The notes under the pieces: model-generated
The model's input: only the letters and a program-made list of their open reading frames with translations
What the model was told of the DNA's origin: nothing
The model's database searches: none
Made by a program: the position numbers and the translations under genes
Assembly (NCBI RefSeq): GCF_032116555.1
Contig: NZ_CP134949.1
Span: 1,302,001-1,366,000, forward strand
Source of the DNA: Halobaculum sp. XH14
GTDB taxonomy: Archaea; Halobacteriota; Halobacteria; Halobacteriales; Haloferacaceae
Length of the DNA: 64,000 nucleotides
Direction of reading: 5' to 3'
Shown: positions 33,564-47,627 of the stretch, one piece after another
Position numbering within the stretch: position 1 is the stretch's first letter
Layout of the letters: each line of letters begins with the position of its first letter

Positions 33564-34622
33564 TCACAGGAGCGAGTAGATGTGGCGTTCGTACGTTTCG
33601 CGGACGTTGTCGCCCCAGTTGTGGGTGTACGTGTCGATGATGTCCTCGGCGACGTCCCCGCGGAGGTACTTCACGATCCCGCGTTCGCCGGTCCGGTCGC
33701 GGAGGTGCGTCGTGAAGAAGTGGCGGAAGTAGTGGGGCGTGACGTTCTGTGTCGCCCCGGCACCCGATTCGTACCAGCCCATCTCGGTCGCGTGTTCCCT
33801 GACGATCCGCTGAACCTGCTCGGGTGTGAGTCGTTCGCCCCAGCCGCGGGCCGTCCCGAGGAACAGCGGCTCCGCGTCCGAAACCGGGTCCGGACGGATC
33901 GCGAGCCAGCGGCACAGCGTCCGTTCGAGTTCCTCGTCGACGGGTACGACGGTCCCACGCTTTCGTTTGTTCGAGGCGCCCCGCATCTCGCCGTTGTACT
34001 CGGTCCCGACGCTCGGTTCGGCGGCGACGTACAGCGATTCCGGGCGGCCATCGAGCTGGGCTCGATCCCCGAGGCGGAGTTCGCCCGTCTCGACCGACAG
34101 CGAGAGGTCACGGAGGTCCAGGTTGCACAGTTCACCGACGCGCATCCCCGTCTTCAGGAGCGTCACGATCAGCGCCCGTTCCAGCGGGTGGCCGACGGAG
34201 GCGACGAACCGCCGCATTCGGGGGACGGAGATCTCCCGGCGGGCGGGGTCGGTCTCGATTCGCTCGTCGAGTTCCTCCATGACCAGCGCCATCGGGTTCG
34301 CGTCGAAGGCGCCCACCTGGGTCATGTAGGCGTAGAACCGGTGGAGGTACGCGGCGTAGGTGGCGACCGACGAGTCGGCGAGGTCGGGGTCACGACGCAG
34401 TTCGTGGACGAACGACATACAGTCCCGGTGTGATGCGTCTCCGGGCTCGACGGTCCCGGAACTGCCGGGTCCGCCGTCCGCGAGGAAGGACTCGAACCGA
34501 CGGAGCACCCGACCGTACTCCTCTCGGGTCTGGTCGCTCTTGCCGTGTAGCTCCATGTCCTGAACGAAGTAGCCGATCGGGTCGGCCGGATCGTCGGCGT
34601 TCCGACTGTCGGTGCTACTCAT
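33564..34622 (-). CDS. Tyrosine recombinase (XerC/D-like integrase)
   Basis: This 352-residue recombinase has an N-terminal SAM-like core-binding domain (about residues 10-120) and a catalytic domain. Catalytic residues visible are the Arg in GMRVGELCNL (about 167), the HxxR of TPHYFRHFF (about 304-307), a late His in THNWGDN and the presumed nucleophile Tyr in ETYERHI. Length fits a chromosomal or element-borne recombinase. Its start overlaps the end of a ribbon-helix-helix gene by 8 bases. Gene-poor flanks suggest a mobile or rearranged segment. Confidence 0.88.
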   Translation of the reverse strand: MSSTDSRNADDPADPIGYFVQDMELHGKSDQTREEYGRVLRRFESFLADGGPGSSGTVEPGDASHRDCMSFVHELRRDPDLADSSVATYAAYLHRFYAYMTQVGAFDANPMALVMEELDERIETDPARREISVPRMRRFVASVGHPLERALIVTLLKTGMRVGELCNLDLRDLSLSVETGELRLGDRAQLDGRPESLYVAAEPSVGTEYNGEMRGASNKRKRGTVVPVDEELERTLCRWLAIRPDPVSDAEPLFLGTARGWGERLTPEQVQRIVREHATEMGWYESGAGATQNVTPHYFRHFFTTHLRDRTGERGIVKYLRGDVAEDIIDTYTHNWGDNVRETYERHIYSLL

Positions 34623-36049: not shown

Positions 36050-36856
36050 TTATCGCTCGGCGGCCTCGACGAGTTCGCGGACCCGCGGCTCGGAGACCGG
36101 CCCCCGGACGTCTCCGTCCTCCTTGAACGCCGTCCCGACGATGACGCCGTCGGCGACCGAGAGGATTTCCCCGACCGATTCGGTTGTCACCCCGCTCCCG
36201 ACGAACAGCGGCGTCTCCAGGCCGAACTCGTCGTGTGCGGCCCGTGCGGCCTCGAGGTCGGCCCGCTCGACCCCCTGTCCGGTTCCCGACCCCGTGATGA
36301 TCGTCCCGTCCGCGAGGCCACGCTGAACGGCGTCGACGATCGATTCAGCGCCCGCGGACTCCGTTCCCACTGCCGTGGAGTGTTTCACCTCGTGATCAGC
36401 GAGCACCCGCACGTCGGCGTCGATGCGGTCCTGCAGTCGGGCGGTCTCGTGGGCTTTCCCCTGGATGAGCCCCTGGTCGGTCAGTCGTGCCCCGGAGTGA
36501 ACGTTCACCCGAACGAAGGACGCGGCGGCGGCCGCAGCGACCGAAACCGCGGCGTTCGCGTCGTTCCGGAGCACGTTGACGCCGACCGGGACGTCGACGG
36601 CGTCCCGGACCTCGCCGGCCGCACGGGTCATCATTGCGACGACGTGCTTCGGAACGTCGTCGGGGTAGAACGGGGCGTCCCCGAAGTTCTCGAGCATGAC
36701 GGCGTCGACGCCGCCGTCCGATAGCCGCCCCGCGTCGCGGCGAGCGTCCGCGAGCAGTGCTTCGCGGGACCCGGCGTACTGGGGCGCTCCCGGGAGCGGC
36801 GGGAGGTGGACCATGCCGACGACCGGCCGCGCGGTTCCGAACGTGGATTCGAGCAT
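36050..36856 (-). CDS. BtpA/SgcQ-family TIM-barrel protein
   Basis: This 268-residue protein carries the family start VVGMVHLPPLPGAPQY (about residues 12-27). It also has DAVMLENFGDAPFY, GVNVLRNDA and GSGVTTESV. BtpA was named for stabilising photosystem I in cyanobacteria; archaeal members have other, undefined roles and resemble sugar-phosphate or nucleoside-processing barrels. A strong hairpin (36920-36956) and a TATA-like TGTATAAG (about 36969-36976) lie upstream. Confidence 0.86.
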   Translation of the reverse strand: MLESTFGTARPVVGMVHLPPLPGAPQYAGSREALLADARRDAGRLSDGGVDAVMLENFGDAPFYPDDVPKHVVAMMTRAAGEVRDAVDVPVGVNVLRNDANAAVSVAAAAAASFVRVNVHSGARLTDQGLIQGKAHETARLQDRIDADVRVLADHEVKHSTAVGTESAGAESIVDAVQRGLADGTIITGSGTGQGVERADLEAARAAHDEFGLETPLFVGSGVTTESVGEILSVADGVIVGTAFKEDGDVRGPVSEPRVRELVEAAER

Positions 36857-37201
36857 GGTGTTCGACTGGTTCTCCGGGGGGTAAAGTCCGCCGCGTTCCC
36901 CCCGCTGTCGCGTCTCCATCCACTGTTTCGTTGCTTCGGAAGCGACGAAACGGTGGCCGCACCGCGACTTATACACTGTATGTGGCTATACCAAGCAAAC
37001 GGCCGAACTGGCAGCGGTCTCGGGCGTGTGCCCCCTCGTTCGATGGGTGTGTCCCCCCGCTCGGCCAGCTCCGGATCACGTCGTCTCCCGGCGTCGAAAC
37101 TACGGCGTCACCTTCGGATCGTGACGGATGGCGGCGCGTCACGTCCGTGGTGGTACTGGACGAGTACCGGCCCGTCCCGACCGACCTCCGGGAATCTCAT
37201 G
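36857..37201. other. Intergenic region with strong hairpin and TATA-like boxes
   Basis: The stretch between the BtpA start (36856) and a convergent-side stop (37202) has no gene. It contains the 17-bp stem at 36920-36956 and AT-rich boxes at about 36968-36993 that could drive the BtpA gene. The rest shows nothing recognisable. Confidence 0.45.
36920..36956. promoter_or_regulatory. 17-bp stem-loop upstream of the BtpA-family gene
   Basis: The left arm 36920-36936 pairs with the right arm 36940-36956 through 17 positions with two G-U wobbles and no mismatch; the loop is CGG. The stem lies about 64-100 bases upstream of the BtpA ATG, near the transcript start implied by the TATA-like box at about 36970. 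It could be a 5'-leader structure or an operator. Confidence 0.55.
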
Positions 37202-37870
37202 TCAACGGTTCGCGGCTCGCTCGTCGAGCCGCGCCGCGAGCTGATCGACGACGCCAGTCAGGTGGGCCGTGCCGACGACTGCGACGACGAGGCCGCCGAC
37301 GGAGTCGTAGACGATGTCGAGGACGGTGTCCTCGAGTCCGTACTGCGTGAGAACGGCCTCGCCGCCGATCACCCCGGACGCGACGCTGATGTAGAACTCC
37401 AGCAGTTCCCAGACGACGCCGAAGGCCAGCACGAACACGAGGAGGTAGAGGGCGAGGAACCGCGGCGGGAGGGCGATCGCCTCCGAGTGTTCGTCGAGCG
37501 CTCGTGCACCCGTGTAGGCGACGCCGACGACCAGCGACGCGGATAGCGCGTGGGTCAGGTGGTCCCACCACCACGTCCCGCCGTACAGCGTTGAGAAGTC
37601 GAGCCCGGGGAGCGGAACCGTCCCGAACGCGTGCAGGAACATGGCGACGGCGATCCACAGGACGAGTCCGACGTCGACCGTGAAGCCGTAGTTTCGCTCG
37701 AGCGCCGCCGGGAGGAGACTCACCAGCAGTCCGGCGCCGGCGTTGACCATGATTCCCGGGTCCCGGTTCACGAGCCCGAGCAGGAAGATCCCGAGCATAC
37801 AGAGCTGGAGCAGGCGCACGAGCGTCCACTCCCGCTCGGGTGTGAGTCCGATGCGACGAACGACGCTCAC
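37202..37870 (-). CDS. Multi-pass membrane protein (DUF2238/YjdF-like)
   Basis: This 222-residue membrane protein has about six hydrophobic helices. Conserved-looking polar residues sit in WWDHLTHALSASLV and VWELLEFYISVA and continue with TVLDIVYDSVGGLVV, as in the YjdF/DUF2238 family. The GTG at 37870 overlaps the stop of the upstream gene in GTGA. The shared reading direction suggests coupled expression. The function is unknown. Confidence 0.75.
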   Translation of the reverse strand: MSVVRRIGLTPEREWTLVRLLQLCMLGIFLLGLVNRDPGIMVNAGAGLLVSLLPAALERNYGFTVDVGLVLWIAVAMFLHAFGTVPLPGLDFSTLYGGTWWWDHLTHALSASLVVGVAYTGARALDEHSEAIALPPRFLALYLLVFVLAFGVVWELLEFYISVASGVIGGEAVLTQYGLEDTVLDIVYDSVGGLVVAVVGTAHLTGVVDQLAARLDERAANR

Positions 37871-38472
37871 GTCGAGTTCACCTCGCCGGTCGCACCCGCC
37901 CCGTTCGAGCGCCGGAGCCGCCGACGGAACAGCCACCGGAACACGAGGCCGCCGATGACGCCTCCGAGCGCCGCGGCGGTGAAGACGGACATGAGTTCGG
38001 CGTTCGTCCCGACGAACGGCGTCCCGAGGACCGCCGCCGCGGCAGCGGCGAGGACCGTCCAGACGGCGGCCGTCGCAAGCGTCAGGAACACGACGAACGA
38101 AACGGCAAACGAGGGCGTCATGCTGACGCTCGTGGTGGCCTGTATCGTCGCGGCGGCGAGCATTCCGATCGCGGCGATGCCGACGCCGTCCACGACCAGC
38201 CCGAAGAACCCCGGGTCGACCGTCCCGACGACGTGGGGCGCCGTCGCGAGTGCCAGGACCGGCCACGGTACGAACCGCAGCGGCGACTCGCCGACCACGG
38301 CCGGGTAAACTGCCAGCGCCGCGGCCGTCCCCGCGAGCACTGCGTCGACCGGCCGTCCGGCGAGCAGGCTACCGACCGCAGCGAGTGCGAGCGCCCCGGT
38401 GAGCGTCAGACCGATCACCGAGTTCGCTCGGCTGTCGCCGAGATACCACCCGTCCGTTGCCGCCTGGCTCAT
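37867..38472 (-). CDS. Multi-pass membrane protein of unknown function
   Basis: This 201-residue protein has about six hydrophobic segments rich in Ala, Val and Gly. It ends in a basic patch (FRWLFRRRLRRSN) and a short polar tail. It overlaps the start of the DUF2238-like gene by four bases, forming a two-gene membrane operon. I recognise no named family. Confidence 0.7.
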   Translation of the reverse strand: MSQAATDGWYLGDSRANSVIGLTLTGALALAAVGSLLAGRPVDAVLAGTAAALAVYPAVVGESPLRFVPWPVLALATAPHVVGTVDPGFFGLVVDGVGIAAIGMLAAATIQATTSVSMTPSFAVSFVVFLTLATAAVWTVLAAAAAAVLGTPFVGTNAELMSVFTAAALGGVIGGLVFRWLFRRRLRRSNGAGATGEVNST

Positions 38473-38654
38473 GAGCTGTGCCTCGAACGAGGGCTGACGG
38501 TCTCAAAACGATAGTTTCGAGAAGCCGACCGTTTTCTCGACGGTTCGTTACCGGACGCTCGGGCGAGGCGCTCCCCATGAGTACGGCCCACCGACCGTTC
38601 CTACCGAGACTCCGGACCGGTCCCGCGGTCCCGACTCGCGCATAACCGGTCCGG

Positions 38655-38825
38655 TCAGGACGGGAGCGAAACGATCAGTTCGTGCTCGGTGCCCTCCAGA
38701 ACGGGGTGCCCACAGAACGGGCAGTACTCGTACGTGTGGACGCCGGGTTTGACGTTGTACCCCCCGGTGTTGTCACAGTCGATCCGCGTCGTCGCCTTCG
38801 TCGTGTTCGGCGGTTTCGTGATCAT
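38655..38825 (-). CDS. Small zinc-ribbon-like protein
   Basis: This 56-residue protein has RIDCDN and EYCPFCGHPV, so three cysteines and a possible histidine ligand make a partial zinc ribbon. The ATG at 38825 is favoured because TTTATGATC at about 38862-38870 would put the transcript start some 13 bases upstream. An in-frame ATG at 38849 lies inside the promoter. The role is unknown. Confidence 0.55.
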   Translation of the reverse strand: MITKPPNTTKATTRIDCDNTGGYNVKPGVHTYEYCPFCGHPVLEGTEHELIVSLPS

Positions 38826-38979
38826 CGTTGCGGTGCGGTACCGGCACACAGGGTAGGGTGATCATAAACGTTCTCCCGCCACGTTCCCTCCGCCCGTCGG
38901 GTCGAGCCGGGTCGTGGTGTAGGACGGACCTACCGGCGTCTCTCCGAGCGCCAACGACCACCGCAGAACCGGAGTCGCG

Positions 38980-39029
38980 ACCGGCCACCACCTCCGCTCA
39001 CCGGCCACCACCCCCGATCACCGGTCAGC
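38980..39029. repeat. Short tandem repeat overlapping the FGE gene end
   Basis: Two 20-base units beginning ACCGGCCACCACC (38980-38999 and 39000-39019, two differences) and a partial third unit run across the stop codon of the FGE gene. It may be a slippage product of no function. Confidence 0.5.
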
Positions 39030-39989
39030 CGGAACGATACACCGAAAGCCGACGTGGCTCGTGGAGGTGTCGACCGGCTCGGGGTACCGGGCGGCCGGCC
39101 GGTAGCGGAAGCAGTAGTTGGGTGCACAGAGATGCGAGCCGCCTTTCAACACCTTCCTGGGAACCTCGGCGGGGTCGCGCGGGTCGACGCTCTCGGCTTC
39201 CTGAACGCCCCGCGGGTTCGTCGGCGTACAGCACGAGGGCGAGTCCGCTTCGCCGGCCGTCGGGTCGGCGCTGAACCAGTCGCGGGTCCAGTCCCAGACG
39301 TTGCCCGCCACGTCGTGGAGGCCGAACTCGTTCGGGGGGAACGAGCCGACGGGCGAGGTGCGCTCGTACCCGTCGAGTTCCAGGTTCTCGTGGGGGAACT
39401 CGCCCTGCCAGGTGTTCGCCAGCAGGGTCCCGTCCGGGACGTGCTCGTCGCCCCAGACGAACCGCTTGCCGTCGAGGCCACCCCGAGCCGCGCGTTCCCA
39501 CTGGGCCTCGGTCGGGAGGCGCTTGTCGGCCCAGTCGGCGTACGCCCGGGCGTCCTCGAAAGCGACGTGGACGACCGGGTGGTCCGGCTCGTCCTCGATG
39601 GAGCTGTCGGGGCCCAGCGGGTGGTGCCAGCAGGCGCCGGGGACGTACTCCCACCAGCCGCTCGGGTCACGGAGGTCGACGGGACCGTCGGGCGAGGTGA
39701 AGACGGCCGACCCCGGAACGAGGTCGGCGGGGTCCGAGCCGGGGTAGTTCGCCGGGTCGGGGTCTCGTTCGGCCAGCGTCGTGTAGCCGGCGTCCTCGAC
39801 GAACCGTTCGAACTCGGCGTTGGTCACGGGCGTCTCGTCCATCCAGAACCCGTCGACGTCGACCTCCCGGGTGGGGGCCTCCTCGGGGTAGAACTCGTCG
39901 GATCCCATCCGGAACGTCCCGCCGGGAATCCAGACCATTCGGTCGTCCGGCGCGGTCGGCGGTTCGGGGTCGGTTCGGTGTCGAGTCAT
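39018..39989 (-). CDS. Formylglycine-generating enzyme (sulfatase-modifying factor)
   Basis: This 323-residue enzyme oxidises the cysteine of a CxPxR motif in type-I sulfatases to formylglycine. It opens with MVWIPGGTFRMGSDEFYPEE (about 18-37) and contains RLPTEAQWERAARGG and VAGNVWDW. It carries the redox-active cysteines as Cys288 and Cys293 in GGSHLCAPNYCFRYRPAAR, both present. No signal peptide is seen, so it should act in the cytosol. A matching sulfatase lies at 43509-45827. Confidence 0.92.
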   Translation of the reverse strand: MTRHRTDPEPPTAPDDRMVWIPGGTFRMGSDEFYPEEAPTREVDVDGFWMDETPVTNAEFERFVEDAGYTTLAERDPDPANYPGSDPADLVPGSAVFTSPDGPVDLRDPSGWWEYVPGACWHHPLGPDSSIEDEPDHPVVHVAFEDARAYADWADKRLPTEAQWERAARGGLDGKRFVWGDEHVPDGTLLANTWQGEFPHENLELDGYERTSPVGSFPPNEFGLHDVAGNVWDWTRDWFSADPTAGEADSPSCCTPTNPRGVQEAESVDPRDPAEVPRKVLKGGSHLCAPNYCFRYRPAARYPEPVDTSTSHVGFRCIVPADR

Positions 39990-40462
39990 GAATCGTGATC
40001 GGTCGCCGGGGACGACCGAACTGGTACCCGATGACGACGTGCCGTGGACGCAGCTTTGTTATGCACACACGATTCTCCATGACGTCCGGCTTAGAAGCTG
40101 AAACGACGGATTAGCGGACGGATCGGGGGCTCAGGATGCGCCTACTCGGACGAGATCGCGTTCCCGGACGCGTGCGCCCGTGACACGACGCTCCGGGACG
40201 ACTGGATCGCTCCTACGGGAACCCTTCGCGCGGACGCCCGTCCATTACAAAGGTCGTGCTCGACCAACGGCACGTTCACATGATCGTCACCGACCACGTT
40301 CGCGTTCGACGACGGTGAGGGTGCGATACGACCGTATCCGGGACGGAACCCTCCCGACGCACGTCCCGGTCCGGACCGGGCGTCCGCGGGGGGACGAGCC
40401 CGGACTCCGGGACGCGTCCCGTGCCCGCGGGCCGGTGATCGACCCCGTCGTTCTGGACGACC
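39990..40462. other. Divergent intergenic region between the FGE and SulP genes
   Basis: The 473 bases contain no credible gene. TGCATAACAAAGC near 40055-40067 is an AT-rich candidate box for the FGE gene on the minus strand. GCGATACGACCGTAT near 40323-40337 is a weak box for the SulP gene. The promoters are inferred only. Confidence 0.35.
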
Positions 40463-42187
40463 ATGTCGACCGATAGTCCCTCCGAGCGCGCGAAGCGCTT
40501 CGCGGGGTCGGTGCTCCCGGTGACCGAGTGGCTCCCCGCGTACGACCGGTCGTGGCTTCGGACCGATCTCGTGGCGGGGATCACGGTCGCGGCCGCGGTC
40601 ATCCCGGAAGGGCTCGCGTACGCCTCGCTCGCGGGACTGCCCCCCCAGACGGGGCTGTACGCCGCGCTGATGGGTGCGGCCACGTACGTGTTCTTCGCCT
40701 CGTCGCGCCAGGTGCTCCTCGGGCCGACGTCGGCGCTCGCCATCCTGCTTCTCGCCGGCGTGGGCCCGATCGCGGACGGAAGCGAACTGTCCTATCCCGC
40801 GCTCGTCACGGTGACGACGGTTCTCGTCGGCGTCATCGCCGTGGCCGCGAGGGTGTTCCGGCTCGGCCACCTCGTGAGCTTCATCTCGGGGTCGGTCCTG
40901 ACCGGCTTCTCGACGGGGGCCGCGCTGTACATCATCTCCACGCAACTCGGGAAACTGCTCGGTATCTCGGGCTCCGAGGGCACGTTCTTCGAACGCGTCT
41001 GGTTCGTCCTGGTCAACCTGAACGAGGCGCAGGCCGCGACGGTCGCCGTCGGACTCATCTCGATCGCGCTCCTGTTGCTCGGAGAGCGGTACGTGCCCCG
41101 CTTGCCCACCGCGCTGGTGGTCGTCCTGCTCGCCATCGTCGCCTCGTCCGTCCTGAACTTTCAGGCGTGGGGAGTCGAAATCGTCGGGGAGCTCCCCGGC
41201 GGGCTTCCGTCGCTCACGGTTCCGTCGATCCCCTCGATCCCCGTCCTCGGAGCGCTCTTTCCGGTGGCGTTCGCGCTCTTTCTCCTCTCCTACGTGGAGG
41301 GGATCGGTGCCGTCCAGACGTTCGCGCGCCGGAACGGCTATCGGGCCGACCCCGACCAGGAACTCCTCGCGGACGGCGTCGGGAACGTCGCCGCGGGGCT
41401 GTTCGGCGGGTTCGTCGTCGGCGGGAGCATGTCCCGGTCGGCGCTCAACGACTCCATGGGCGGGAAGTCCCAGGTCGTCAGCGCGGTGATGGCGCTCGTC
41501 CTGGTCGTCGTCCTCCTGTTTCTCACCGGGCTGTTCACGACGCTGCCGGATGCCACCCTCGGGGCGATCGTCGCCGTCGCCGCGCTCGGGCTCGTCGACG
41601 TCGCGGGGATGGAACGGCTCAGGAGCGTCAGCCGGAGCGAGTTCGTCATCGCGTCCGCGGCGCTGCTCGGGGTGCTCGCCGTCGGCATCGTCTGGGGCGT
41701 GTTCATCGGCGTCGGCCTGTCGCTGCTTCACACGATCTCCCTGGCTAGCAGCCCGAAGACGGAGGTCCTCGGCCGAATCCCGGACACCGATCATTTCGTC
41801 AACCTCGGGAGCTATCCCGAGGCGGTCGAGGACCCCGGCGTGCTCGTCTACCGCGTGGACGCCGGGCTGTTCTACGCGAACACGAACGTCGTTCGGGAGG
41901 ACCTCGAGGCGCGCGTCGAGGGGCGCGACTCGCCCCTCGATCTGGTCGTCTTCGACCTCTCCTCGTCGCCCATCGTCGACTTCGCGGGCGCGGAGTTCCT
42001 CGGCGAACTCCGGAGCGATCTCGCCTCCCGGGGGATCGACCTCCGCGTCGCGGGCGCGAACGCACAGGTCACGGAACTGCTCGCGGCCGCCGGCCTGGAC
42101 GGGGAACTCGGCGGCGTCCGCGAGGACGAGCGGATCGCCTCCGCCATCGACCGATGGCGGCGCGAGGAGGAGGAGGAAACGTCGTGA
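40463..42187 (+). CDS. SulP-family anion transporter with STAS domain
   Basis: This 574-residue membrane transporter has the family signature GITVAAAVIPEGLAYASLAGLPPQTGLYAAL at about residues 38-68. About eleven helices follow, then a C-terminal cytosolic STAS domain (about 440-560, with DLSSSPIVDFAGAEFL). SulP proteins move sulfate, bicarbonate or related anions. Proximity to a sulfatase and its activating enzyme favours sulfate or a sulfated compound. The stop overlaps the next start in GTGA. Confidence 0.9.
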   Translation: MSTDSPSERAKRFAGSVLPVTEWLPAYDRSWLRTDLVAGITVAAAVIPEGLAYASLAGLPPQTGLYAALMGAATYVFFASSRQVLLGPTSALAILLLAGVGPIADGSELSYPALVTVTTVLVGVIAVAARVFRLGHLVSFISGSVLTGFSTGAALYIISTQLGKLLGISGSEGTFFERVWFVLVNLNEAQAATVAVGLISIALLLLGERYVPRLPTALVVVLLAIVASSVLNFQAWGVEIVGELPGGLPSLTVPSIPSIPVLGALFPVAFALFLLSYVEGIGAVQTFARRNGYRADPDQELLADGVGNVAAGLFGGFVVGGSMSRSALNDSMGGKSQVVSAVMALVLVVVLLFLTGLFTTLPDATLGAIVAVAALGLVDVAGMERLRSVSRSEFVIASAALLGVLAVGIVWGVFIGVGLSLLHTISLASSPKTEVLGRIPDTDHFVNLGSYPEAVEDPGVLVYRVDAGLFYANTNVVREDLEARVEGRDSPLDLVVFDLSSSPIVDFAGAEFLGELRSDLASRGIDLRVAGANAQVTELLAAAGLDGELGGVREDERIASAIDRWRREEEEETS

Positions 42188-42801
42188 GCTTCCTCACGGT
42201 GCTCCCGCTGGCAGTGGTGATGGTCGCGGGCCCGCAGATCCTGAGCGCCATCTTCCTCGCGACGAGCGACGGATGGCGGCGCAACTCGGCCGCGTTCGTC
42301 CTCGGCGCGGCGCTGTCGATATCCCTCGTGGTCGCCGCCGCGTTTCTCCTGGGGGACGGTGCCATCGGCCAGGGAGGGTCGAGGGAGACGCTCGATCTCC
42401 TCATCCTCGTGCTCCTCATCGTCGCCATGGTCCGCACGTTCCTGACGCGCGGGCAGTCGGAACCCCCGGAGTGGATGGGCAGGCTCCAGACCGCGAGACC
42501 GCGGCTCGCGCTTCGGCTGGGGTTCCTCCTGCTCGGGTTCTTCCCGACCGACGTCATCACCTCGGTCACGGTCGGCTCCTATCTCGCCGCCAACGGGTTC
42601 CCGCTGACGGAGGCGATCCCGTTCGTCCTCCTCACGCTGCTGTTGCTGGCACTCCCGTCGCTCGCGGTGGTCGCGCTCGGCGAGCGCGCCGAGGTCACCC
42701 TCCCGCGGATCCGGGACTGGATGAACGCGAACTCCTGGATCGTCAGCGAGGTCGTCATCCTCTTTTTCATCGTCATCGTCCTCGACGGCCTCCTGGGATA
42801 G
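42184..42801 (+). CDS. GAP/SfLAP-family six-helix membrane protein
   Basis: This 205-residue protein starts at GTG within the stop of the SulP gene. It has about six helices, and the first segment, FLTVLPLAVVMVAGPQILSAIFLATSDG, resembles GAP-family (sulfolipid-addressing/LysE-like) proteins. Translational coupling to the SulP transporter suggests a joint role in exporting or balancing an anion or a sulfated product. The substrate is unknown. Confidence 0.75.
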   Translation: MSFLTVLPLAVVMVAGPQILSAIFLATSDGWRRNSAAFVLGAALSISLVVAAAFLLGDGAIGQGGSRETLDLLILVLLIVAMVRTFLTRGQSEPPEWMGRLQTARPRLALRLGFLLLGFFPTDVITSVTVGSYLAANGFPLTEAIPFVLLTLLLLALPSLAVVALGERAEVTLPRIRDWMNANSWIVSEVVILFFIVIVLDGLLG

Positions 42802-42953
42802 GCGGGACGGCCGACGGCCACGAGTGGGTACAGGCGGCGGGTAGCAGTCGATACCGGCAACTTGTTGACGACGTCGGGGTCGTCCCGTGGGGTCGGTTCA
42901 TTGGTCTCGAGTCGTCGATGTCTGTCGGACGGCTATCCCCCGTGTCCGATCGT

Positions 42954-43018
42954 GTCGATGGCGGCCGCGACCGCGAGGACGACGCGTTCGTCCTCGCGGT
43001 CGCGGCCGCCACCTCGAC
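42954..43018. terminator. Very strong hairpin between convergent genes
   Basis: The left arm 42960-42982 and right arm 42988-43010 are a perfect 23-bp inverted repeat around the loop CGCGT. Pairing continues with T42959-A43011 and, after a two-base bulge, with GTCGA (42954-42958) and TCGAC (43014-43018). It lies between the stop of the SfLAP-like gene (42801) and that of the LURP-one-like gene (43043). A bidirectional terminator is the natural reading, but the stem is unusually long and the T-run is absent. Confidence 0.7.
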
Positions 43019-43042
43019 GCCGTAGGTGTCGCGGACGCGGTA

Positions 43043-43501
43043 CTAGCGCTTCGAGACGGTCGCCACCCGTGCGCCCTCCCGGGTGATGGTGTACTCGTGG
43101 TCGAAGACGTTCCCCCGGACGTGCAGCGGCGGCCCGTCGGCGACCTGGACGGTGAACCGGTCCCTGACGGGCGTCACGAGCGCCCGGTCGATGGACGCCA
43201 CCCGGCGGCCGTTCCGTTCGATCACCATCGTCTCCCTGAGCCGGACGACCCGCTCCTGGACGCGGTAGAGCGGTCGTCCCCGCGAGTCCCGGATCCGGAT
43301 CGTGTTCCGGACTCTGAGGGCCTCGCCGTCGACCCTGAACGCCGGCACGCCCGCGCCCGTCTCGATGACGAAGTCGTCGCCGAACGAGAGCAGTCGTTCG
43401 CGCATCCGGTATCTGGTCGGCGCCGCGCGGGCCCCCGGTCCGCGTCCCCGCGACCGGCCGCGCTGGCCCTGCCGTCCCTGCCGGCGCCGGAGCGGACTCA
43501 T
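43043..43501 (-). CDS. LURP-one-related (tubby-like fold) protein
   Basis: This 152-residue protein has an Arg/Gly-rich N-terminus (about residues 1-30) and a LURP-one-like beta barrel. It contains the pattern YRMRERLLSFGDDFVIE, then FRVDGEALRVRNTIRIRDSRG, and ends with YTITREGARVATVSKR. The fold resembles tubby C-terminal and phospholipid-scramblase domains and may bind lipid. The start lies seven bases after the sulfatase stop, so the two are one operon. Confidence 0.82.
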   Translation of the reverse strand: MSPLRRRQGRQGQRGRSRGRGPGARAAPTRYRMRERLLSFGDDFVIETGAGVPAFRVDGEALRVRNTIRIRDSRGRPLYRVQERVVRLRETMVIERNGRRVASIDRALVTPVRDRFTVQVADGPPLHVRGNVFDHEYTITREGARVATVSKR

Positions 43502-43508
43502 CCCGCCA

Positions 43509-45827
43509 TCACTCCCGGGCCAGGATGCGGTCCATCTCCTTGTCCTCGTGGACGAACGGCTCGCCGCTGACGTCGACCGTCACGCGGGCGATATCGCCGG
43601 TGAACGCAAACGGTGCCCGGTCCCGGTAGTCGTCGCTGACGGCGTCGACCGCGTCCCGGCCACAGCTCAACCCCGCGACGATGCTGACGGTGATCGGGAT
43701 CGTCGTCGGGAGGTCGCCCTCGCCGACCTGTTCGTCGCCGTAGTAGAGCCTGACGGTGCCGGGGGCGCCCTTGCCGTCGGGGACGTCCGGGTCGCCGGTC
43801 GTCTCGAACTCCATGCTGACCGTGACCTCGCCCTCCGGGAGACGCTCGTCGGCGACGACCTCGTACTCGTCGACGCCGACGTAGTTGTGTACGTAGCGGA
43901 GCCGCCCGTCGTCCACGAACAGCGAGTAGCCGCCCGAGCGGGAGCCGTGGGCGAGGAGAACGCCCTCGGCACCGCCCGCCGGAACCGACAGGTCGGCGGT
44001 GATGCTGTGATCGCGGTTCAACACCTTGACGGCCGCGTTCTCGGGGACGTGCTGGCCGCCGGGGTAGTAGACGTACCTGTCGCGGGGCTTCCCGGGCTGG
44101 GGACGCGGCTCCGCGAACCGTTCCGTGCCGCGGCCGTCCAGCGGCAACACGTCGTGCTTCCCGGCTTCGGCCCACCACAGCTGGACGAGTTCGAGCACCT
44201 TCTCGGGGTGTTCGTCGCTGACGTCGTGGGCCTCCGAGAAGTCCTCGGCGACGTGGTACAGTTCCCACCCGGAGTCCTCCAGGCTGGTGGCCGAGAGGTC
44301 CTCGGCCGTGATCGGCTCGTTGAACGGCCAGGGGTGGACCGCGCGCCAGCCGTCGTGGTAGACGGCGCGGGTCGCGAGCATCTCGAAGTACTGGGTCGTG
44401 TGCCGCTCCGGCGCGTCGGGCTCCTCGAACGAGTACGCGAAGCTCGTCCCCTCGATCGCCGACTGTGAGTACCCCTTGATCTCGTCGGGGGCCTCGATGC
44501 CGATCGACTCCAGGATCGTCGGTACCAGGTCGATGGCGTGGACGAACTGGTCGCGCACCTCCCCCTCGGCGTCGATGCCGTTCGGCCAGGAGACCACGAG
44601 CGGGTCGCTCGCGCCGCCGCGATAGCTCTCGCGCTTCCAGCGACGGAACGGCGTGTTCCCCGCCCACGTCCACCCGTACGGGTAGTGGTTGTAGTACTCG
44701 GGACCGCCGAGTCCGTCCATCGCCTCGAGGTTCTCCTCCAGGTCCTCCTCGATGTTGTTGAAAAAGCGGTTCTCGTTGAGCGATCCCGTCGGGCCCCCCT
44801 CGGCGCTGGCGCCGTTGTCCGAGACGAGCAGCACCATCGTGTCGTCGAGTTCGCCGATCTCCTCGAGGAAGTCGAGGACCCGCCCGATCTGGGCGTCGGT
44901 GTGTTCGAGGAAGCCGGCGAACACCTCCATCATCCGGGCGTAGAGCCTCCGTTCGTCCTCCGAGAGCGAGTCCCACTCCCGGACGTCCTCGTTCTGTGGC
45001 GACAGCTCCGTGTCCTCGGGGACGACGCCCATCTCCTTTTGCCGTTCGAGGATCCGCTCGCGGGCCTCGTCCCAGCCCATGTCGAACTCCCCATCGTACC
45101 TGTCGGCCCACTCCTGTGGGACCTGGTGGGGCGCGTGACACGCGCCCGGCGCGAAGTACGTGAAGAACGGCTTGTCGGGGTCGACCTGTTTCGCGTCCCC
45201 GATGAAGTTGATCGCCCGGTCGGCGATGTCCTCGGTGAAGTGATAGCCTTCCTCGGGGGTCGCGGGGGGGTCGACCTGGTGGTTGTCGTGGACGAGCGGC
45301 GGCGTGTACTGGTCGGCGTCGGCGCCGAGGAACCCGTAGTAGCGCTCGAACCCGCGCCCGAGCGGCCACTCGTCGTACGGGCCGGCGGCGCTGTTCGACT
45401 CGGCCGGGGAGAGGTGCCACTTGCCGAGCGCGTGGGTACTGTAGCCCTGCTCGACGAGCATCTCCGAGAGGAACCCGTTCTCGTGCGGGACGTGACCGTT
45501 GTAGCCGGGGAAGCCGGTCGAGACCTCGGTGATGCCGGCCATCGCGTTCGAGTGGTGGTTACGCCCGGTCAACAGACAACTCCGCGAGGGCGAACACAGC
45601 GCCGTCGTGTGGAAGTTGTTGTACCGGAGCCCGTCCTCGGCCAGCCGGTCGACGTTCGGCGTGTCGATCAGCCCGCCGTAACACCCGAGCTGTCCGAACC
45701 CGACGTCGTCGAGGACGATCATCAGGACGTTCGGTGCGTCCTGGGGGGCCCGCGTCTCCTCGGGCCACCACGGTTCCGATTCGTCGTACGTGCGGCCGAT
45801 CCGGCCGTGAAACTCCTTTCCTTGCAT
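43509..45827 (-). CDS. Arylsulfatase, type I (formylglycine-dependent)
   Basis: This 772-residue sulfatase hydrolyses sulfate esters. Metal-binding residues appear in LMIVLDDVGFGQLGCYGG (about 35-52; Asp40, Asp41). The modified cysteine is Cys78 in LCSPSRSCLLTGR, a canonical CxPxR. HALGKWHL and VSDNGASAE supply further active-site residues. About 600-772 form a beta-rich C-terminal domain. No signal peptide is visible, so it is predicted cytosolic, like its FGE. A palindrome and TATA box lie upstream. Confidence 0.94.
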   Translation of the reverse strand: MQGKEFHGRIGRTYDESEPWWPEETRAPQDAPNVLMIVLDDVGFGQLGCYGGLIDTPNVDRLAEDGLRYNNFHTTALCSPSRSCLLTGRNHHSNAMAGITEVSTGFPGYNGHVPHENGFLSEMLVEQGYSTHALGKWHLSPAESNSAAGPYDEWPLGRGFERYYGFLGADADQYTPPLVHDNHQVDPPATPEEGYHFTEDIADRAINFIGDAKQVDPDKPFFTYFAPGACHAPHQVPQEWADRYDGEFDMGWDEARERILERQKEMGVVPEDTELSPQNEDVREWDSLSEDERRLYARMMEVFAGFLEHTDAQIGRVLDFLEEIGELDDTMVLLVSDNGASAEGGPTGSLNENRFFNNIEEDLEENLEAMDGLGGPEYYNHYPYGWTWAGNTPFRRWKRESYRGGASDPLVVSWPNGIDAEGEVRDQFVHAIDLVPTILESIGIEAPDEIKGYSQSAIEGTSFAYSFEEPDAPERHTTQYFEMLATRAVYHDGWRAVHPWPFNEPITAEDLSATSLEDSGWELYHVAEDFSEAHDVSDEHPEKVLELVQLWWAEAGKHDVLPLDGRGTERFAEPRPQPGKPRDRYVYYPGGQHVPENAAVKVLNRDHSITADLSVPAGGAEGVLLAHGSRSGGYSLFVDDGRLRYVHNYVGVDEYEVVADERLPEGEVTVSMEFETTGDPDVPDGKGAPGTVRLYYGDEQVGEGDLPTTIPITVSIVAGLSCGRDAVDAVSDDYRDRAPFAFTGDIARVTVDVSGEPFVHEDKEMDRILARE

Positions 45828-46310
45828 GTCTGCCCTCCGTCGTGTCCGACGGATTCGCGGCGCGACCCCCGCTGCTGCCGACCGCGTGACCGGACGCCCG
45901 CGGGGCTTCCGACCGACAGTTCGAACTGCGGTCGCGGGGGTATAGTTATAATATTCCATATGGTTTCGGGGCCGAGCTTACCGTCCGGAAAGCTCGACGT
46001 TTATCCAAAGGACGGTGACCGCTTCCGGACTGGATGCCGGTTTTCTGACCGTCGGTTCCGACGTGATGGTACGGGATACTGACGAGGTTCGACGGTCGTC
46101 GGTCACAGTTCGAGGCGTGCCCTCGCCTCCGTGTCGACGACTCGTCGCCGCGGGTCGGGTCTCGGATCCGTCGAGCAGTCCCGGGTCGCGAGTCCGAGTC
46201 CGGACGACCGGTTTTTCCGTTCCGCGGTCGGTACGTCGGACGGTAACGACGGATTACGCCGACGGGGCCGGCGTCGGATCCGGCCGACGATCGACCCGAG
46301 CGATCCGTTC
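45828..46310. other. Upstream region of the sulfatase; no gene seen
   Basis: The half nearest the sulfatase carries its promoter elements (see separate entry). From about 45970 to 46310 I see only GC-rich sequence with no gene. The AI-2E-family gene ends at 46311. Confidence 0.4.
45917..45963 (-). promoter_or_regulatory. Sulfatase promoter with palindromic operator candidate
   Basis: On the minus strand an AT-rich ATATTATAACTATACC (about 45940-45955) is a good TATA region. It is flanked upstream by CCATATGG (45956-45963) and followed by the perfect palindrome CAGTTCGAACTG (45917-45928) near the expected transcript start. A repressor binding there would block initiation. The leader to the ATG at 45827 would then be about 90 bases. 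Confidence 0.5.
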
Positions 46311-47627
46311 TCAGGCCCGCTCGTCCCCGGCGTCCTCGGCAGTCCCCGATTCATCGCACTCCGGTCCGCCGTTCTCGCCCGTTCCTGGTCCCTCGTCTCC
46401 CGATCCGGCGCTCTCGCGCTCGTCCGCGTCCCCCCCGCCGCTTTCGCTCGCTCCGCCGCCCGTGTCGCGCCCCCTGCTCGGGTCGTCATCCTCGGCTTCC
46501 GTCGGTCGCGCCCCCACCGACTCGCCCATCGACACCGCCGGCGTCAGCGGGCGGCCCGAGACGAGTTCGGGCAGGACGATCCGGACGGTCTCGAGCAGCA
46601 GGACGAACAGGATGGGGAGCAGGAAGAACCCGTACCAACCGAACAGGATGGGGCCCAGCAGGTAGGCGAACAGCAGCACCATCACGTCGAGGTCCCGACC
46701 GGTGATGTACGGCTGGAGGAACGTCTGCGGGAGGATGTCCAGGACGAGGAAGTAGGCGACGAGCACGCCGCCGACGAAGACGAGTCCCCTCCCGTCCATG
46801 CGCAGGGATCCGAACGCGAGGTAGGCGACGACCGGCAGGTAGACGACCTTGCCGACGACGATGGGGATCAGGCTGGCGACGCCGGTGAGGAACGCGAGCA
46901 CGAGCACCATCGGGACCGCCAGCCCCCGGGGGGCGAGCAGGTTCGTGCCGAAGTAGGCGACGGCGGCCACGACGGTCATGGCGAGGACGAACAGGAAGTT
47001 GCCGAAGAACACGGATTCGAGGTCCTCGTCGACGGCCGACGCGTAGGCGAACGCCGTCGTGTCCCGGCCGCCGAACAGCCGGACCAGCCCGGCCGACAGC
47101 GCGTCGTCGTTCTTCAACAGGAAGTACGACAGGGTCACCGACAGCGAGAGCAACAGCAGTCCGCCGATGACCGCCGTGACGGTGGTCACCCCCGCCTGCA
47201 GGATGGTCCGTGCGGTCCGCTGTGGGTCGGTGATGGCCCGTCTCGGGTTCCGAACCGTCGAGAGGAGCGTCCGCCGCTGTTCGGGCGAAAGCGCCTGCAG
47301 GGACTCACCGAGGAACGGGACGCCCGCGCCCCCGCCGAGTAACTGCTGGGCCTGCTGGAACAGCTGAAACCCGGCGTACCCGAGCATGAGGAGGATCGGG
47401 ACGAGCACGACCAGGATGGTGAGCCAGGCCGCGATCCCGTCCGAGTCGATCCTCGTCGAGAGCCGCCGGTAGATCGGTCGGGTGGCGTAGTAGCCGAACA
47501 CCCCCAGCACCAGGATGCCGACGAACGAGTAGGCGACGAACGCGGCCGCCAGGCCGAGTAGCCCGGTGAACGCCCACCAGCCGATGCGGGTCCGTCGTTC
47601 CCGGGGGCCTCGGTCGGCGTCGGTCAT
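46311..47627 (-). CDS. AI-2E-family (TqsA/PerM-like) transporter
   Basis: This 438-residue permease has about seven to eight helices in the family pattern: an N-terminal pair (WWAFTGLLGLAAAFVAYSFVGILVLGVFGYY), a soluble stretch, then PMVLVLAFLTGVASLIPIVVGKVVYLP and a long last segment. It ends in a disordered acidic Gly/Ser/Asp-rich tail of about 70 residues. Family members export small molecules such as autoinducer-2 or Na+. The ATG at 47627 starts the conserved part. Its link to the sulfatase block is positional only. Confidence 0.82.
   Translation of the reverse strand: MTDADRGPRERRTRIGWWAFTGLLGLAAAFVAYSFVGILVLGVFGYYATRPIYRRLSTRIDSDGIAAWLTILVVLVPILLMLGYAGFQLFQQAQQLLGGGAGVPFLGESLQALSPEQRRTLLSTVRNPRRAITDPQRTARTILQAGVTTVTAVIGGLLLLSLSVTLSYFLLKNDDALSAGLVRLFGGRDTTAFAYASAVDEDLESVFFGNFLFVLAMTVVAAVAYFGTNLLAPRGLAVPMVLVLAFLTGVASLIPIVVGKVVYLPVVAYLAFGSLRMDGRGLVFVGGVLVAYFLVLDILPQTFLQPYITGRDLDVMVLLFAYLLGPILFGWYGFFLLPILFVLLLETVRIVLPELVSGRPLTPAVSMGESVGARPTEAEDDDPSRGRDTGGGASESGGGDADERESAGSGDEGPGTGENGGPECDESGTAEDAGDERA

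Follow-up and report, generated by a model that had tools for sequence, protein, structure and literature searches.

The 64 kb stretch of the Halobaculum sp. XH14 genome analysed here (the window, positions 1302001–1366000 of the main contig of a 3.68 Mb haloarchaeal genome) contains a gene block that is probably a laterally acquired cassette. It appears to encode a cytosolic sulfatase of the Pseudomonas aeruginosa arylsulfatase (PAS) type, which is matured by a formylglycine-generating enzyme (FGE), has a laminin-G-like C-terminal domain and acts on a sulfate monoester. Genes were called by a codon model, and the proteins were scanned against Pfam and NCBIfam. The initial annotation had united the FGE, a SulP-family anion transporter, an SfLAP-family membrane protein, a LURP-one-related protein and the sulfatase into one functional block of five genes; the pair of FGE and sulfatase holds, whereas the block as a whole does not.

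The FGE gene (39018..39938, minus strand; 306 aa, with a possible start at 39989) matches PF03781 with 276 bits (E 3e-82) in the Pfam scan, and the domain extends across the whole protein. The protein aligns over its whole length to solved bacterial and human FGEs (E ~1e-69), and the Cys288 and Cys293 residues (numbering of the 323-aa frame) pointed out in the initial annotation are in register with the catalytic cysteine pair of these enzymes. The Cys-type sulfatase (43509..45827, minus strand; 772 aa) consists of a PAS-like domain and a C-terminal beta-sandwich. Its likely ATG is at 45827, and the longer frame to 45959 is unsupported by relatives. The protein matches PF00884 (222 bits, E 1e-65) and, as annotated initially, has a CSPSR motif at residues 78–82 with Cys78. 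All ten residues that align with the PAS active site are present (D40, D41, C78, R82, K136, H138, H231, D337, N338 and K398), and the alignments with haloarchaeal and bacterial relatives show them conserved. Residues 31–552 match PDB entries 1hdh and 4cxk (E ~1e-80), and the structural model of the sulfatase (pLDDT 79.5) superposes on PAS with a Foldseek TM of 0.83–0.85 normalised by PAS. The last 200 residues are outside the PDB sequence match. Modelled alone, the C-terminus (~580–755, pLDDT 88.6) forms a beta-sandwich of the laminin-G/CBM40 type (Z ~13.8, rmsd 2.7, 141 aligned residues). The model thus predicts a laminin-G/ConA-like domain, a common fold that points to no ligand. As the initial annotation had stated, no signal peptide can be read in the N-terminal sequence of either enzyme.

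No further PF03781 gene was found elsewhere in the genome, and none of five other sulfatase-fold regions contains C-x-P-x-R within its sulfatase-domain frames; paralogues of the same genome were therefore rejected as additional clients of the FGE. Judging by their sequences, the FGE and the sulfatase seem to be matched one to one here. Sulfatase-fold genes without the Cys motif are located at G000:C1 525159, 2160816, 2162409 and 3292364; annotating them as sulfatases would be unsafe because their Halobacterium counterparts have been linked to N-glycan sulfation.

A comparison of 391 Halobacteria genomes revealed full-length orthologues of the sulfatase (72–86% identity) in 17 genomes from several families; the set includes just one more genome of this genus, and it has no orthologue. 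An FGE of the same clade (~68% identity or more) is present in 16 of these 17 genomes and in none of the 374 others (Fisher p = 1.6e-27), while the other haloarchaeal FGEs, ~50% identical, are a different group. LURP-one genes were found in 12 of the 17 sulfatase genomes vs. five of the 374 others (p = 1.6e-15). The unit of these Fisher tests is the genome and shared descent is ignored, which makes the small p-values look more significant than they are. The pairing of FGE and sulfatase is strongly supported by these sequence comparisons, and the co-conservation on which the initial annotation had staked its proposal was found for this pair. For SfLAP, which had been regarded as a partner of the sulfatase, no association was detected (5/17 vs. 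64/374 genomes, p = 0.16).

The neighbours of the sulfatase were counted within 10 kb at 22 distinct haloarchaeal loci. An FGE is present at 16 of them, and a gene of the bile-acid:sodium-symporter family at 13; in nine cases the latter is codirectional with the sulfatase and located 22–309 bp downstream. In Halorussus halophilus, the genes follow in the order FGE–sulfatase–symporter–LURP-one, all codirectional. Halobaculum limi shows this order too, and a second sulfatase and additional genes lie among the four. SulP was matched at four loci and is intact at three; two more loci retain C-terminal scraps only, one of which is 42 residues long. The usual transporter neighbour of the sulfatase is thus a bile-acid-type symporter and not SulP. 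The other neighbours are AI-2E-family transporters (11 loci), a pair of membrane proteins (8–9), LURP-one (8), DUF308/HdeD (7), DUF389 (7), metallophosphoesterases (6), cation antiporters (5) and SfLAP (2). An 80-codon frame in the G304 genome (L036 11418–11660) combines what is left of the N-terminus of a second sulfatase with the SulP scrap of that locus; this frame is a relic of a second sulfatase–SulP neighbourhood. Tandem full-length sulfatases with one FGE can be noted in Haloarcula pelagica (L043 12001–16656) and Halobaculum limi (L180 10001–14650).

In the window, the SulP gene (40463..42187, plus strand; 574 aa) encodes a transporter with a STAS domain (TIGR00815, 423.7 bits vs. a cut-off of 380.45; PF00916/PF01740). 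It is followed by the SfLAP/GAP-family gene (42184..42801, plus strand; 205 aa; PF11139, 81.3 bits vs. a cut-off of 35). The GTG start of the latter (42184) and the SulP stop codon (42185–42187) overlap by 4 nt in GTGA, as the initial annotation had described. Both proteins are ~78% identical to those of G323, a genome of another family whose sulfatase is sister to that of the window in the sulfatase tree; both genomes have the SulP–SfLAP pair and an FGE. A general role of the SulP–SfLAP pair as the system's conserved transporter was rejected, since no genomes other than that of the window and G323 have the pair next to the sulfatase; at the other haloarchaeal SfLAP loci examined, no SulP was found within ~1.5 kb. 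A symporter copy hidden elsewhere in the genome was also sought and rejected: the two PF01758 genes present gave no tblastn match to the island symporters. Solved proteins of the bile-acid-transporter type are no more than distant relatives of the island symporter (E ~1e-8), which also scores far below the NCBI cut-offs.

The initial annotation had also described a LURP-one-like protein next to the sulfatase. The gene (43043..43501, minus strand) indeed starts with an ATG located 7 nt past the sulfatase stop codon, and it matches PF04525 (30.0 bits vs. a cut-off of 24.5), but its 3' end is broken. The frame ends with VATVSKR before a TAG that replaces a conserved Trp (SKR*YRVRDTYGVEV, with the asterisk marking the stop). 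At this place, the relatives carry W-FRVRDTYGVEV and ~25 more residues. Past the TAG, the homology resumes in frame and is then interrupted by a frameshift, which falls inside a perfect inverted repeat at 42959–43011. The ~35 residues past the stop are present in all 11 other distinct LURP-one relatives compared. The nonsense codon and the frameshift remove these conserved residues, so the gene is a broken member of PF04525, lacking the conserved C-terminal segment of the family, and not a working one. The search of the genome revealed no further LURP-one gene, and the protein has no match to a solved structure by sequence.

The inverted repeat (24-nt arms, 5-nt loop; a feature without strand) lies within the 3' remains of the LURP-one gene and is the only hairpin with arms of at least 14 nt and a loop of 3–10 nt in the 64 kb window. 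Relatives have a short imperfect palindrome at most at this site. Hairpin-templated mutation would be the natural reading of the lesion. The hairpin sits between the convergent SfLAP and LURP-one genes, and it may be either a scar of such a mutation or a two-way terminator.

A GTDB genome scan revealed 80 sulfatase loci in many phyla and in Methanosarcina, all but one ~52–63% identical to the window protein. In the set of non-haloarchaeal neighbourhoods (83 loci, 1.50 Mb), SulP is present near nine loci, with ~0.7 expected from a baseline of 20 carrier genomes (127.7 Mb), which contain ~58 SulP genes (Poisson p ~6e-8). The SulP transporter proposed in the initial annotation as part of the system is thus weakly supported: it is enriched near bacterial relatives and intact at only three of the 22 haloarchaeal loci. 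An FGE-family neighbour is present at 16 of the 83 loci, in one case without the Cys pair, and a radical-SAM neighbour, labelled anSME-like from its sequence without a family scan, at 11. The two types never occur together at one locus; chance gives zero overlap 8% of the time (p = 0.08), so this exclusivity is suggestive only. The neighbour is of the radical-SAM type at the three archaeal loci of methanogen type (L065, L087 and L121). LURP-one genes near the sulfatase were also found in Methanosarcina, Chloroflexota and Solirubrobacterales, and DUF1622, DUF6325 and antiporters recur around the bacterial sulfatase relatives.

In a quick tree, the haloarchaeal sulfatases form one clade beside the bacterial relatives (SH-aLRT 100), and the haloarchaeal FGEs likewise form one clade (99/99). 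In a collection of plasmids only, the sulfatase was found in six named haloarchaea; the copy in the window, by contrast, belongs to the main contig. The history of the sulfatase was probably a single acquisition followed by lateral spread. The AI-2E, BtpA, DUF5805 and integrase genes of the window are syntenic with those of the congener G311, in which the region corresponding to 36990–46510 is occupied by an SDR and a CBS-domain gene. Since the flanks are syntenic and the genes between them differ, the site is a variable one and the block a discrete cassette. The patchy distribution of the pair suggests joint transfer of an enzyme and its modifying enzyme. More tentatively, one could imagine a mobile module of sulfatase, maturase, bile-acid-type symporter and LURP-one that moves between bacteria and archaea and swaps its maturase with lifestyle, using oxygen-dependent FGE in aerobes and radical-SAM anSME in anaerobes, with a substrate class of its own in haloarchaea. 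If true, the haloarchaeal pair would be the first of its kind characterised in an archaeon.

According to the chemistry of these families, the FGE would use copper and oxygen to oxidise Cys78 of the sulfatase, yielding formylglycine. The matured, metal-dependent enzyme would then hydrolyse a sulfate monoester, both steps taking place in the cytosol. The substrate may be a small organic sulfate entering by an anion transporter. In general, the symporter of the relatives is a more plausible candidate importer than SulP, which may replace it in this genome. SulP proteins also transport bicarbonate and dicarboxylates. The freed sulfate would exit through SulP or be absorbed by metabolism, and the laminin-G-like domain may serve to hold either the substrate or a partner protein or molecule. 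The ancestral set included LURP-one, whose gene is broken here. SfLAP and the membrane pair seem to be either passengers of the island or helpers that are optional.

Several observations weigh against this explanation. The window lacks the symporter that most relatives have, and its SulP and SfLAP genes are on the strand opposite to the sulfatase, with the pair present at only two loci (the window and its sister G323). The SulP baseline was drawn from 20 genomes only, and the co-occurrence tests count genomes, not independent events. Moreover, the FGE gene has an in-frame TGA in G323 (L025 17200–18700) and a frameshift in G266 (L039 14300–15800), while the sulfatase is intact in both. These lesions can be explained by draft errors, by decay or by tolerated loss of the FGE.

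It is quite possible that only the FGE and the sulfatase form a functional unit, and that the remaining genes (SulP, SfLAP, LURP-one and the membrane pair) travel as passengers in a hypervariable island collecting membrane and stress genes; as regards the two enzymes, this overlaps with the cassette explanation. The neighbours indeed vary widely over the 22 haloarchaeal loci, the site, which lies close to an integrase, has other genes in the congener, and SfLAP and the membrane pair are found without the sulfatase. However, three neighbours recur above chance: the symporter (13/22), LURP-one (p = 1.6e-15) and, beside bacterial relatives, SulP. A rather improbable alternative is that the cassette edits sulfated membrane lipids from the cytosolic leaflet, with LURP-one, which has a tubby/scramblase-like fold, and SfLAP, of a lipid-addressing family, presenting the lipid. 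Haloarchaea produce sulfated glycolipids and phosphatidylglycerosulfate, and lipid desulfation is conceivable because LURP-one and SfLAP belong to lipid-linked families. The co-occurrence of LURP-one with the sulfatase, its presence near the sulfatase in Methanosarcina, Chloroflexota and Solirubrobacterales, and the SfLAP gene of the window agree with such a role, but SfLAP is unassociated with the sulfatase and the LURP-one gene of the window is broken. Most bacterial carriers of the sulfatase are not known for such sulfated lipids.

The enzyme is very unlikely to be a formylglycine-dependent phosphonate or phosphodiester hydrolase instead of a sulfatase. The superfamily is promiscuous, related hydrolases likewise use formylglycine, and there is a weak PehA match, far under its cut-off. 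Nevertheless, the closest solved relative is an arylsulfatase (E ~1e-80), and both the Asp-Asp/Asp-Asn metal set and the Lys and His residues match the sulfatase type and have been kept in the relatives.

The initial annotation had missed one part of the block, a two-gene operon of membrane proteins (37202–38472) that recurs beside the sulfatase elsewhere. It comprises gene A (37867..38472, minus strand), itself a recurrent neighbour of the sulfatase, and gene B (37202..37819, minus strand), whose true start may be slightly upstream. Neither protein matches a Pfam family, and B has no NCBIfam match either. Membrane protein B was rejected as a specific marker, as its family is present in 368 of the 391 genomes. 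The native flanks are the AI-2E-family transporter gene (46311..47627, minus strand) on one side and the BtpA-family gene (36050..36919, minus strand) on the opposite side, both syntenic in G311. AI-2E is common near other sulfatases, but it was rejected as a part of the cassette in the window, since it belongs to the backbone shared with the congener. A tyrosine recombinase/integrase gene (33564..34622, minus strand; PF00589, E 1e-13) adjoins the variable site, and G311 has one too. AI-2E, DUF389, DUF1269, HdeD/DUF308, DUF5518, metallophosphoesterase and cation antiporter genes recur at loci L025–L049, L179 and L180, and their recurrence is unexplained. A scan for promoters of the sigma-70 type gave no match, the sigma-70 model being unsuited to archaea.

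The enzyme pair is of a known kind and is an uncharacterised archaeal variant of it; cytosolic Cys-type sulfatases are already known in bacteria, where the Cys-type enzymes are typically cytosolic (review, PMC3920027). According to the same review, no archaeal sulfatase had been purified by 2013 (PMC3920027). In the library searched, haloarchaea, sulfatase and formylglycine were not mentioned jointly in any paper, and searches on the gene set, sulfated lipids and SfLAP gave no relevant paper. With one FGE and one Cys-type sulfatase in a single genome, the system offers a clean genetic test of archaeal formylglycine maturation.

When comparing the sulfatase with PAS (1HDH), the similarity of the catalytic domain, the ten active-site residues, the absence of a signal peptide and the Cys type can be noted. 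The identity in the structural match is ~32%, however, and PAS has no C-terminal laminin-G-like domain; its gene neighbours include an ABC-type sulfate-ester importer and not SulP or a bile-acid-type symporter. The FGE resembles human SUMF1 and bacterial FGEs in its whole-length match and both catalytic cysteines, and differs from them in being archaeal and in having apparently a single client in the genome. Actinobacteria, cyanobacteria, myxobacteria, Chloroflexota and Methanosarcina have uncharacterised "arylsulfatases" of 770–785 aa, which are relatives of the sulfatase over its full length (54–63% identity). Several of them have FGE- or anSME-type neighbours, while their neighbourhoods are mostly without SfLAP and the membrane pair. 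The Halobacterium proteins VNG1056C and VNG1057C, studied as candidate N-glycan sulfotransferases (PMC11980604), also belong to the alkaline phosphatase superfamily, and similar proteins are annotated as sulfatases. Both are Cys-less, whereas the sulfatase of the window has the Cys motif and an accompanying FGE.

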